A stretch of DNA of 64,000 bases from Pseudoxanthomonas sp. J35 (lineage in GTDB: Bacteria > Pseudomonadota > Gammaproteobacteria > Xanthomonadales > Xanthomonadaceae): NCBI RefSeq assembly GCF_000513995.1, contig NZ_AZVB01000021.1:193-64192 (forward strand), in the 5' to 3' direction. Position numbers and translations under genes: made by a program. Under the pieces are notes generated by a model. It made no database searches and was not told the DNA's origin. It saw only the letters and a program-made list of their open reading frames with translations. The stretch's first letter is position 1, and every line of letters starts with the position of its first letter. Below are positions 4,494 to 18,149 of the stretch, piece by piece.

Positions 4494-5060
4494 ATGCGAC
4501 TGGTACTACTCGGCCCGCCCGGTTCGGGCAAGGGAACGCAGGCGGCGCGCCTCAAGGAAATCCTTGGTGTCCCCCATATTTCGACCGGCGACCTGCTGCG
4601 TGCCGAAGTGGCGGCGGGCACTCCGCTGGGCCTGCAGGCCAAGGAAGTCATGGCGCGCGGCGACCTGGTGTCCGATGAGATCCTGCTGGGCATGCTCGAG
4701 TCGCGGCTGGGCCGCGAGGACGTGGGCGGCGGCTTCATCCTCGATGGCTATCCGCGCAACCTGGCCCAGGCCGATGCGCTGGACGGGCTGCTGGCCAAGA
4801 TCGGCCAGCCGCTGGACGCGGTGGTGCAGCTGGACGTGGGCACCGACCTGCTGGTCGAGCGCATCGCCGGCCGCGCGCAGGCCGAAGGCCGCGCCGACGA
4901 CAACCCGGAATCGGTGCGCAAGCGCCTGCAGGTCTACAACGATTCGACCGCGCCGGTGATCGGGTTCTACGAGAACCGCGGCACGCTGACCCGCATCGAT
5001 GGCGTCGGCACCATGGACGAGATCACCGCCCGGATCCTGGCCGCGCTCAAGAAGGCCTGA
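4494..5060 (+). CDS. adk: Adenylate kinase, short type
   Basis: Cytosolic enzyme (188 residues) that interconverts 2 ADP with ATP and AMP. The P-loop GPPGSGKGT is at residues 7-15, the AMP-binding STGDLLR follows, and DGYPRN marks the nucleoside-monophosphate-binding region. The LID is short (RAQAEGRADDNPESVRKRL), without the 27-residue insertion or the zinc cysteines of the long bacterial form. The ATG at 4494 has AGGGAGC just upstream. A strong terminator follows at 5082. Adenylate kinase also recycles AMP released together with PPi in biosynthesis, which fits the neighbouring PPi enzymes. Confidence 0.97.
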   Translation: MRLVLLGPPGSGKGTQAARLKEILGVPHISTGDLLRAEVAAGTPLGLQAKEVMARGDLVSDEILLGMLESRLGREDVGGGFILDGYPRNLAQADALDGLLAKIGQPLDAVVQLDVGTDLLVERIAGRAQAEGRADDNPESVRKRLQVYNDSTAPVIGFYENRGTLTRIDGVGTMDEITARILAALKKA

Positions 5061-5115: not shown

Positions 5116-5154
5116 CGTGGGCGCGGTGGAAGCGGTTGCAGGAGGGCTGACAAC

Positions 5155-5220
5155 GGAAACGGCAACGGTAACGGTAATAGCCACAGCCACAGGCACAGGC
5201 ACAGCAAAGGCAACGGCATC
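5155..5220. repeat. Degenerate hexanucleotide tandem tract
   Basis: Eleven consecutive hexamers drift from GGAAAC/GGCAAC/GGTAAC/GGTAAT through AGCCAC (x2) and AGGCAC (x2) to AGCAAA/GGCAAC/GGCATC. The unit length is kept although the unit changes in steps, as expected from slippage followed by mutation. It lies in the 725-bp gap between adk and mpl, and I see no gene over it. Confidence 0.75.
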
Positions 5221-5252
5221 GGGGGGGGCGAGCTCCGGATGGGGCCGCCGCC

Positions 5253-5344
5253 CCAAGGGGGTATGGCGCATCGCGCGGTTCCGCGTCCTGCTCCAACGCG
5301 CGAACGCGGCACATCCATGTGCCGCTTGCGCCATACCCCCTTGG
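5253..5344 (+). repeat. Interspersed hairpin element, copy 1
   Basis: A 92-bp element bounded by an 18-bp perfect inverted repeat (5253-5270 with 5327-5344, core GGGGGTATGGCGCA). Inside are a bulged arm (CGCGCGGTT with AACGCGCG) and a perfect 9-bp hairpin, GCGGCACAT-CC-ATGTGCCGC, at 5306-5325. The overall shape is a long stem with two side arms. A second copy in the opposite orientation lies at 5571-5677. It has no coding capacity. It resembles a non-autonomous mobile element or structured repeat; I cannot assign a named family. Confidence 0.8.
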
Positions 5345-5424
5345 GACGACGTCCTCGGGTGCGTTGGGGCCATGGCTTCTATCGGCGTCGCGGAAAGCCC
5401 GTCATCCCGCAAGTCGCGCCGCCC

Positions 5425-5502
5425 GTAGAGTCGGGCTTGCCCGACTCCCCCGCCCTGATGTCCCAGCACACGCGAAAGGCAGCGGGGCAAGCCCCGCTCT
5501 AC
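5425..5502. repeat. Inverted pair of GTAG-type REP palindromes
   Basis: The + oriented unit is at 5425-5447 (GTAG followed by the palindrome AGTCGGGC-TT-GCCCGACT). The opposite unit is at 5481-5502 (AGCGGGGCAAGCCCCGCT followed by CTAC). The GTAG head and short GC stem match the repetitive extragenic palindromes known in Stenotrophomonas and relatives, which are mobilised by REP-associated tyrosine transposases. The paired arrangement is typical. It lies between the two copies of the larger hairpin element. Confidence 0.85.
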
Positions 5503-5570
5503 AGGGGCGTCCCCTTCCGGGACGGGAAGGAAACAGCGAACGAAGCCACGACCCGAAAGCGCCGAAAGAC

Positions 5571-5677
5571 GCGGTAGCGCGGGGGTATGGGGCAAGCAGG
5601 CCATGGATGGCCTGCGTTCGCGCGTTGGAGCCAGGAACGGCGGAACCGCGCGATGCGCCATACCCCCGCGCTGCCGC
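5571..5677 (-). repeat. Interspersed hairpin element, copy 2 (inverted)
   Basis: Read on the minus strand this matches copy 1 over most of its length: GGGGGTATGGCGCATCGCGC, the arm ending AACGCGCGAACGC, and the closing CATACCCCC. The outer stem here is about 20 bp (5571-5590 with 5658-5677). The inner hairpin at 5596-5615 is GCAGGCCAT-GG-ATGGCCTGC. Compared with copy 1, three stem positions differ and each is matched by a change on the other side, so pairing is kept. Confidence 0.8.
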
Positions 5678-5773
5678 GGCTCCGTCCGGAGCGCGCGAAC
5701 CCACGCTGTTGCCGCTGCTCGACCGCCAGCACGCGACAGGTCACGACGCCCCCAAATCCCCACGCCCATGGGC

Positions 5774-5785: not shown

Positions 5786-7189
5786 ATGAGCACCATCCAT
5801 ATCCTCGGTATCGCCGGCACCTTCATGGGGGGCGTGGCCGCGCTGGCACGCGAACTGGGTTACACCGTCGAAGGCAGCGACCAGGCGGTGTATCCGCCGA
5901 TGTCCACCCAGCTGGAACGGCTGGGCATCCAGCTGCGGCAGGGCTACCTGCCGGAGCACATTTCCGCCGATGCGGAGGAAATCGTCGTCGGCAACGCCCT
6001 CTCGCGCGGCAATCCCGCGGTGGAGCAGGTGCTCGACGACGGCCGCCGCTACACCTCCGGCGCACAGTGGCTCGCCGAGAAGGTGCTGCCCGGGCGCACC
6101 ACGCTCGCGGTGGCCGGCACCCACGGCAAGACCACCACCACCACGATCCTGGCGTTCCTGCTGGAGGCGGCCGGGCGCGACCCGGGCTTCCTGGTTGGCG
6201 GCGTCGCCGAGGATTTCGGTGCCTCGGCGCGGCTCGGTACAGGCCGCGAATTCGTCGTCGAGGCGGACGAATACGACACCGCCTTCTTCGACAAGCGCAG
6301 CAAGTTCGTCCACTACCGGCCGACGGTCGCCATCCTCAACAACCTCGAATACGACCACGCCGACATCTTCCCGGACCTGGCCGCGATCCAGCGCCAGTTC
6401 CACCATCTCGTGCGCACCGTGCCGCGCGCCGGCCGCCTGGTGGTGAATGGCGAGGACGCGCACCTGGCCGAAGTGCTGGCGATGGGCTGCTGGACGCCGG
6501 TGGAAACCTTCGGCCTGGACGATGGCGCTGCAGCGCTCCCGCGCGCCGATGGCGGCGCCGGTTTCGACTGGAGCGCGCGCCTGGTCGAGGCCGACGGCAG
6601 CGCCTTCGTGGTCCTGCATCGCGGCGAGGAAGCCGGCACCGTGCGCTGGCCGCTGGTCGGTCGCCACAACGTGATGAACGCGCTGGCCGCGCTGGCGGCG
6701 GCGCATGCGGTGGGCGTGGCCCCGTCGCAGGTCGCCGCGGCGCTGTCGCGCTTCCACAGCGTCAAGCGGCGCCTGGAAGTGCTCGGCAACGCCCGCGGCA
6801 TCACCGTCTACGACGATTTCGCCCACCATCCCACGGCGATCCGGACCACGCTCGAAGGCCTGCGCGCGAAGGTCGGGACGGCGCGGATCGTGGTGGCGAT
6901 GGAGCCGCGCAGCAATTCGATGCGGCTGGGCGCGCATGCCGACGCGCTGGCGCCGTCGCTCGACCCGGCCGACGCGGTGGTGTTCCTGCATCGTCCGGAA
7001 CTGGCCTGGGATGCCGGCAAGGTGGTCGCGGCGGTGCGCGGCGAAGCGCGTACCGCGCCGGATACCGCGGCGCTGCTGGCCGCGCTGGGCGAGCTCGCGC
7101 GCGCCGGCGACCACGTGGTGTTCATGTCCAACGGCGGCTTCGACGGCGCGCCGCGCCGCTTCCTGGCGCAGCTGGCCGATGAAGGCTGA
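5786..7189 (+). CDS. mpl: UDP-MurNAc:L-Ala-D-Glu-meso-DAP tripeptide ligase
   Basis: A murein-recycling enzyme of 467 residues that joins recovered tripeptide to UDP-N-acetylmuramate in the cytosol, bypassing MurC/D/E. It has the three-domain Mur-ligase layout: N-terminal Rossmann-like UDP-binding part (ILGIAGTFMGGVA), central ATPase with GTHGKTTTT at 111-119, EADEYDTAFFDKRSKF and NNLEYDHADIF, and the C-terminal domain with DFAHHPTAI. IAGTFMGG and the DEYDTAFFDKR segment distinguish Mpl from MurC. The ATG at 5786 begins the conserved MSTIHILGI. No ribosome binding site is visible, and a -10-like box lies only six bases upstream. Confidence 0.96.
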   Translation: MSTIHILGIAGTFMGGVAALARELGYTVEGSDQAVYPPMSTQLERLGIQLRQGYLPEHISADAEEIVVGNALSRGNPAVEQVLDDGRRYTSGAQWLAEKVLPGRTTLAVAGTHGKTTTTTILAFLLEAAGRDPGFLVGGVAEDFGASARLGTGREFVVEADEYDTAFFDKRSKFVHYRPTVAILNNLEYDHADIFPDLAAIQRQFHHLVRTVPRAGRLVVNGEDAHLAEVLAMGCWTPVETFGLDDGAAALPRADGGAGFDWSARLVEADGSAFVVLHRGEEAGTVRWPLVGRHNVMNALAALAAAHAVGVAPSQVAAALSRFHSVKRRLEVLGNARGITVYDDFAHHPTAIRTTLEGLRAKVGTARIVVAMEPRSNSMRLGAHADALAPSLDPADAVVFLHRPELAWDAGKVVAAVRGEARTAPDTAALLAALGELARAGDHVVFMSNGGFDGAPRRFLAQLADEG

Positions 7190-17624: not shown

Positions 17625-17730
17625 GCCTGGCCTGCGATACCCCTCTCCCTGCGGGGCGAGGCGGCATGTTTGCGCCGGCGCGCATGCCGTCGAACGGCTG
17701 AGTCCTCTGGAAGTCGGCCTGCAGGTTTCT

Positions 17731-18085
17731 GTAGAGCGGGGCTTGCCCCGCTGCTCTTTGCGGGGCGTTGGGTGTCAGGCGTGGGAGTCGGGCAAGCCCG
17801 ACTCTACGGGCGGCCGCAGCCTCCGACCCTCTCCCGGAGGCGAGGGCTATCAGGGCGCGACGTTCCTGTAGAGCGGGGCTTGCCCCGCTGCTCTTTGCGG
17901 GGCGTTGGGTGTCAGGCGTGGGAGTCGGGCAAGCCCGACTCTACGGGGCGGTTGCGACCCCCGACCCCTCTCCCGGTGGGCGAGGGCCATAAGGGCGCGA
18001 CGCTTCCTGTAGAGCGGGGCCTGCCCCGCTGCTTTTCGCACGGCCCGGGGCAGCAGGCGTGGGAGTCGGGCGAGCCCGACTCTAC
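17731..18085. repeat. Triple tandem array of inverted REP pairs
   Basis: Three units, each a + oriented GTAG palindrome followed by an opposite one: 17731-17752 with 17785-17807, 17868-17889 with 17922-17944, and 18009-18030 with 18063-18085. The head-to-head distance is constant (54 bases) and the unit period is 137 then 141 bases, with spacers that also match, so the whole unit was duplicated. The + heads are GTAGAGCGGGGCTTGCCCCG types and the reverse heads are the TCGGGC variant. This fills the 525-bp gap between rubredoxin and the SirB1 gene, where I see no gene. Confidence 0.9.
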
Positions 18086-18149
18086 GGGCGGCTGCGGCCC
18101 TCACCGCCGACACCTCTCCTGGTGGAGGGGGGGAAACAGCGGACTGCGC

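Follow-up and report, generated by a model that had tools for sequence, protein, structure and literature searches.

An interspersed TwoAYGGAY-like hairpin repeat of Pseudoxanthomonas as a candidate RsmA/CsrA-binding RNA element

Introduction

RsmX, RsmY, RsmZ, CsrB and CsrC are each encoded by a dedicated sRNA gene and carry several GGA hairpins. The consensus obtained for CsrA by SELEX is RUACARGGAUGU, with the GGA in a hairpin loop (PMC4347634). In Xanthomonas campestris, the 3'-UTR-derived, GGA-bearing RNA RsmU binds RsmA, and mutation of all four of its GGAs abolishes neither binding nor function (PMC7694677). A further motif, TwoAYGGAY (RF01731), which Rfam places in clan CL00106 alongside RsmY and rsmX, was listed in 2010 from the human gut, gamma-Proteobacteria and Clostridiales (available text of PMC2864571), and CsrA binding was later predicted for it (PMC4333381). 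REPs are 20-40 bp long and carry a GTAG or CGTC tag and short single stems of 5-13 bp; a 3'-end location and pairing in opposite orientations are typical of ordinary members (PMC3733652).

Here we describe a pair of hairpin elements in a 64,000-nucleotide stretch (the window) of the genome of Pseudoxanthomonas sp. J35, from the family Xanthomonadaceae. With slightly better than even confidence, we read this pair as a divergent, interspersed TwoAYGGAY-like RNA element that is probably bound by RsmA/CsrA and putatively transcribed.

The hairpin pair in the window

A first-pass annotation had placed two hairpin copies in opposite orientations within 5253-5677. Both copies were located in the sequence, with bounds that have to be moved to about 5244-5351 and 5570-5680, since the outer stem runs 9-11 bp past GGGGGTATGGCGCA. 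The three inner-stem differences that it had pointed out between copies A and B (GCGGCACAT/ATGTGCCGC vs GCAGGCCAT/ATGGCCTGC) are indeed each compensated, and the GTAG REP pair lies between the copies as described (Table 1).

Table 1. Features of the hairpin pair and of its neighbouring genes (positions in the window)
Feature	Position	Strand	Remarks
Element copy A	5244..5351	- (folded RNA-like GGA strand)	R1/R2 match C8:5436-5543
Copy A outer stem, 5' arm on GGA strand, 25 nt	5327..5351	-	Partner 5246-5270
Copy A outer stem, 3' arm on GGA strand	5246..5270	-	Predicted fold, alignment
Copy A hairpin 1, GCGGCACA-UGGA-UGUGCCGC	5306..5325	-	Loop GGA 5314-5316 (TCC on +)
Copy A hairpin 2, bulged GC arm	5271..5303	-	Apical loop AGGAC 5285-5289
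Copy A conserved 5' flank, minus strand ATAGAAGCCATGGCCCCAACGCACCCGAGGA	5352..5385	-	44 own-genome copies aligned
GTAG REP, first of spacer pair; separate repeat	5425..5447	+	Sequence; spacers elsewhere differ
GTAG REP, second of spacer pair; separate repeat	5481..5503	-	Sequence; spacers elsewhere differ
Copy B conserved 5' flank (GAACGAAGCCACGACCC...GCCGAAAGA)	5538..5569	+	44 own-genome copies aligned
Element copy B	5570..5680	+ (GGA strand)	R1 match C8:5762-5872; fold -79 kcal/mol
Copy B hairpin 1, GCAGGCCA-UGGA-UGGCCUGC	5596..5615	+	GGA 5605-5607
Copy B hairpin 2, apical loop CAGGAACG	5618..5653	+	GGA 5634-5636
Copy B conserved 3' flank (TCCGTCCGGAGC)	5681..5693	+	44 own-genome copies aligned
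adk (adenylate kinase), upstream gene	4494..5060	+	
mpl (UDP-N-acetylmuramate ligase family), downstream gene	5786..7189	+	

On both strands, the two copies fold far above shuffled sequence (z from -8.2 to -9.9, reached by 0 of 200 shuffles). On the strand with GGA in its apical loops, here called the GGA strand (minus in copy A, plus in copy B), the predicted fold is a three-way junction closed by a 25-bp stem, one arm being an 8-bp hairpin and the other a bulged arm. For copy A the minimum free energy is -77 kcal/mol on this strand against -72.5 on its complement; the architecture of its hairpin 1 recurs in other species, and its hairpin 2 carries additional GGAs in an internal loop, UUGGA/GGAAC. 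The outer stem of copy B has a single mismatch, GGGGCA against TGCGCC. In the alignment of 44 own-genome copies, conservation extends beyond the element itself, with flanks of about 30 nt and 13 nt on its two sides.

Copy number and distribution

The first-pass annotation proposed to look through the whole genome for further copies and to see whether their differences break the stems. A BLAST search with copy A (3.24 Mb, 33 contigs) returned at least 40 near full-length copies, and a covariance model built from 26 copies (R1) located the element at about 67 places once opposite-strand echoes were removed, with differences between copies that preserve the stems. All 67 lie between genes as predicted by a simple codon-usage gene finder validated on the window only. 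Thirteen close neighbour pairs are formed by these copies, nine of them divergent like that of the window, and copies outside these nine are mostly solitary.

Across Pseudoxanthomonas genomes the number of matches, opposite-strand echoes included, ranges from 0 (G010 and G011) to more than 70. A second model of the GGA strand (R2), made from 35 copies of many species, matched 71 of the 247 genomes sampled in the host's family, from 19 of its 54 sampled genera, and almost none outside it; the phage and plasmid collections searched gave no match.

Conservation of structure

In the R2 alignment, 97.3% of stem cells are standard pairs, an excess that is partly expected because the structure was derived from one of the aligned sequences, and two-sided changes occur in 32 of 42 pairs. 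None of 500 shuffles reached any of five covariation measures, and sliding the partner by 1-3 columns brought pairing down to 28-47%. Stems of distant species are visibly unrelated, as in AAGGGGATTTCGTCC (G016), AAGGGGGTATGGCGC (own genome) and CCGGGTATGGGCGTC (G075). The stems thus turn over almost wholly across species yet remain paired, and since the covariance-model search that had been suggested gave many strongly covarying copies, the earlier claim that structure rather than sequence is kept holds well beyond the two copies from which it was drawn.

The folded strand and its loops

Reverse-complement hairpins share identical Watson-Crick stems, so that any energy difference between the strands comes only from wobbles, mismatches and loops. 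The fold of the GGA strand has the lower energy in 53 of 56 own-genome copies, 41 of 42 from the genus and 25 of 28 from other genera, and each member of a divergent pair is biased to its own GGA strand. The outer stem on this strand holds 101 G-U pairs against 10 A-C mismatches, and this large excess marks one strand as the folded one. Because copies are related by descent, sign-test p values are optimistic here, and it is the agreement across genera that carries the weight. A single DNA strand engaged in a reaction could in principle give the same wobble bias.

By fold-based parsing, 108 of 126 copies have GGA in both apical loops (CANGGAUG-like) despite the turnover of the stems, so these copies have the two or more hairpin-loop GGA sites by which a CsrA/RsmA-binding RNA is recognised. 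The loops are mostly ANGGA, the first being nearly always CA-N-GGA-UG. Hairpin 1 has AUGGAU in most copies; in hairpin 2, which has AUGGAC, AGGGAC or AGGAC, the position before GGA is not always a Y, and some second loops are ACGAC and lack GGA (L110; the G423/G533 set). The apical loops match the SELEX hairpin of CsrA/RsmA and strongly suggest RsmA/CsrA binding as the most likely function. The presence of CsrA (PF02599) in 17 of 17 genus genomes favours this reading; G010 and G011, which keep it and have no element, speak against it, as do the second loops without GGA.

The strand asymmetry and the near-invariant GGA loops together argue for a protein-binding RNA, with CsrA/RsmA as the probable partner, rather than for the site of a DNA-binding protein. 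The first-pass annotation had left three options side by side, and of these the RNA structure gains from strand bias and loops and mobile-element spread from the species distribution described below, whereas the DNA-binding-protein site is disfavoured. The same evidence bears on a neutral origin, in which hairpin-templated mutation and gene conversion would match the arms of quasi-palindromes with no selection on structure. Such a process would account for two-sided changes far exceeding one-sided ones, for a within-genome consensus that differs by species, as under concerted evolution, and for copy L015, where one arm has been replaced by the inverted other arm. However, template switching offers no reason for a roughly 10:1 excess of G-U over A-C on one strand or for the keeping of both apical loops, and we regard this origin as very improbable.

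Relationship to TwoAYGGAY and other GGA-bearing RNAs

Among the closest described systems is TwoAYGGAY, with a gathering threshold for RF01731 of 43 bits. None of the matches seen in the host's family reached it, the best being L112 (40.6 bits, E 0.0037), to which RF01731 aligns over its full length on the GGA strand; L116 (32.1 bits) and an own-genome copy (32.0 bits) also align end to end. An Rfam scan of the window itself gave only chance-level matches, mostly to microRNA models. All five sub-threshold RF01731 matches in the J35 genome fall on elements and on the GGA strand, which can hardly happen by chance. As in TwoAYGGAY, two hairpins with A-Y-GGA-Y-like loops branch from a three-way junction, the long external stem that closes it is free in sequence, and the conserved strand is the GGA strand. 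The element differs in being sub-threshold and GC-rich and in having its own flanks.

Of 321 genomes sampled in the class, 13 have members above the cut-off. In G351, G533 and G423, which represent two gammaproteobacterial genera other than the host's, there are 30, 15 and 16 RF01731 matches, dispersed and mostly in divergent pairs, so that, in these genomes at least, the wider motif shares the paired dispersal; a paired interspersed repeat is not part of the description of TwoAYGGAY in the available text of PMC2864571. Among 18 pairs mapped, 17 have a spacer of 78-205 bp and one has a spacer of 273 bp. An R2 match at the TwoAYGGAY locus L189 lies on the opposite strand and was left out of the counts. 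In G351, conservation of the flanks extends further out, and the aligned spacers share a conserved block immediately 5' of the element but no convincing promoter. The pairs of this genome (L279-L289) are bordered by conserved outer palindromes (GGTGACTTTTTGTTACGACAAAAAGT...), for which reason the full G351 repeat is probably at least 600 bp long.

With RsmX/RsmY/RsmZ and CsrB/CsrC the element shares ANGGA in hairpin loops and the proposed target, CsrA/RsmA, but it is spread over intergenic DNA as about 67 units of two hairpins. RsmU is likewise a GGA-bearing RNA from the host's bacterial order, but a single locus after comEA; as a member of the family it was ruled out, comEA in genomes of genus g30 (possibly Xanthomonas) not being near any element match. 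Our literature searches found nothing of the kind of a dispersed CsrA-binding repeat.

Gene context and expression

In the J35 genome, 35 copies lie in convergent gaps, 26 in co-directional and 4 in divergent ones (n = 65), compared with 9, 39 and 10 for the window's own genes. They mostly adjoin gene 3' ends; followed along the GGA strand, the next gene lies at a median distance of 170 bp. That gene has the opposite orientation in 54 of 65 cases, so that the GGA strand mostly runs antisense to whichever gene is nearer; the farther one is co-oriented with this strand in 42 of 65. Where the gap is co-directional, both neighbours usually have the GGA strand as antisense (19:7), and most of these copies could thus not be expressed by read-through alone. 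No promoter was recognised for the GGA strand, whose transcription is the weakest link of the RNA reading.

Nearness to gene 3' ends, enrichment in convergent gaps and very stable stems would also be expected from a transcribed 3'-end structure, be it a terminator back-up, an mRNA stabiliser or a convergent-gene insulator, whose loops have no protein partner. We hold this to be quite improbable, since the strand that folds opposes the nearer gene by 54:11 and a stabiliser needs no GGA conserved in both loops across many genera. The same ratio rules out a 3'-UTR element of the nearer gene.

Gain, loss and mobility

Thirteen genomes of the genus have adk next to mpl. The pair is present between them in G000, G003, G012, G008 and G013 and absent from G001, G002, G004, G005, G007, G010, G011 and G016; in G006, G009 and G015 adk is not beside mpl. 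The gap measures 153 and 166 bp without the pair (G001/G002) vs 632-800 bp with it, and this presence and absence by species agrees with a repeat that spreads. At adk-mpl the gap DNA is too diverged to show a target duplication, and none was seen. The spacer holds GTAG REPs in G000 and G003 and other repeats in G012, G008 and G013, which makes the GTAG REP pair a passenger, a repeat separate from the element. Most of 20 copies sampled from P. suwonensis J47 occupy places that also have a copy in J35. For one that J35 lacks (L267), the flanks lie on two J35 contigs, one gap having a truncated remnant and the other no copy, and a clean empty site was not found in this genome. As in MITEs, there are terminal inverted repeats (the outer stem arms) and no coding capacity, 67 of 67 copies being intergenic. 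Copy L015 (C12:34214) is chimeric, its right outer arm and flank being the inverted left arm and flank, which suggests recombination between copies.

A rival reading is a REPIN-like or MITE-like mobile DNA palindrome, in which a transposase would read the single-stranded GGA hairpin and the loops would serve for its recognition instead of CsrA binding. High copy number, inverted pairs (9 divergent among 13 close neighbours), placement in gaps that are convergent (35 of 65) or co-directional (26 of 65), presence or absence at adk-mpl and contig ends at copies all agree with it; REPs behave alike (PMC3733652), the REP/REPIN/BIME class too forming pairs of opposite orientation in convergent and co-directional intergenic gaps, and G-T wobble on the reacting DNA strand would also produce strand asymmetry. 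However, the element, with about 108 nt and a three-way junction, far exceeds REP size, follows no tag tetranucleotide rule and has left no target duplication that could be seen in the diverged adk-mpl DNA; moreover, its stem sequence is free while its loops match an RNA-protein SELEX site, and it matches independently an RNA family of the RsmY/rsmX clan. We consider this reading unlikely. As for a CGTC-tagged REP, copies start with CGTC in some cases and with CGCG, CGTG or others in many, and size and structure (a 108-nt three-way junction with a 25-bp stem) rule it out.

Neighbouring repeats

Many copies are interrupted by a second hairpin repeat of about 80-100 bp (GCGCCGGGAATGAAC...GGGCGCTGGC...GCCACGCGCCAGC), which lies at a fixed position of the outer stem or at another in arm 2. 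It was seen at L016, L022, L028, L029, L014 and L061:2389-2492, and in the J35 genome at C2:152933, C7:59678, C24:84877, C2:131130 and C2:74789. After the conserved 3' flank, most own-genome copies have (GTTGCC/GTTGCT)n hexamer-like tracts, for example at 5150-5221 of the window, which resemble a simple-repeat tail. CTCTCCC...GGGAGAG hairpins and GTAG REPs recur on the 5' side of the GGA strand in many own-genome copies, forming a repeat mosaic, and a REP cluster at 17729-18096 of the window has three stretches that resemble the GTAG REP region between the copies. In genus g30, at L203 (G146:C3) and L204 (G094:C1), there are two tandem same-orientation copies about 245 bp apart before a moaB-like gene, possibly a stable sRNA locus. 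At L061, an N and a sequence break inside mpl (about 2160, G003 C13) suggest a scaffold join in P. suwonensis J47.

Proposed function and significance

In the RNA reading that we favour, the GGA strand would be transcribed either as read-through of a neighbouring gene or by initiation within the spacer, and its two GGA loops may clamp one RsmA/CsrA dimer. Many copies could then jointly titrate RsmA/CsrA or tie host transcripts to it, the copies themselves having spread as a non-autonomous repeat. A further step, beyond RsmA/CsrA binding, would be that the repeats together constitute the host's CsrA/RsmA antagonist, a genome-wide, self-spreading sponge of paired TwoAYGGAY-like units that replaces a few sRNA genes, in an arrangement common to several gammaproteobacterial families; we put this forward as a tentative and rather doubtful proposal.

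TwoAYGGAY was described in 2010, and in the literature that we found its binding of CsrA is a prediction. The element described here is a close relative of this motif and forms a high-copy interspersed repeat, in divergent pairs and with a clear folded strand. Since that strand is clear and each genome offers dozens of natural compensatory variants, the CsrA prediction is directly testable in culturable Pseudoxanthomonas. The finding warns that a view of the TwoAYGGAY motif as a single-copy sRNA falls short, and it suggests a route by which a mobile repeat could tune a global regulator.
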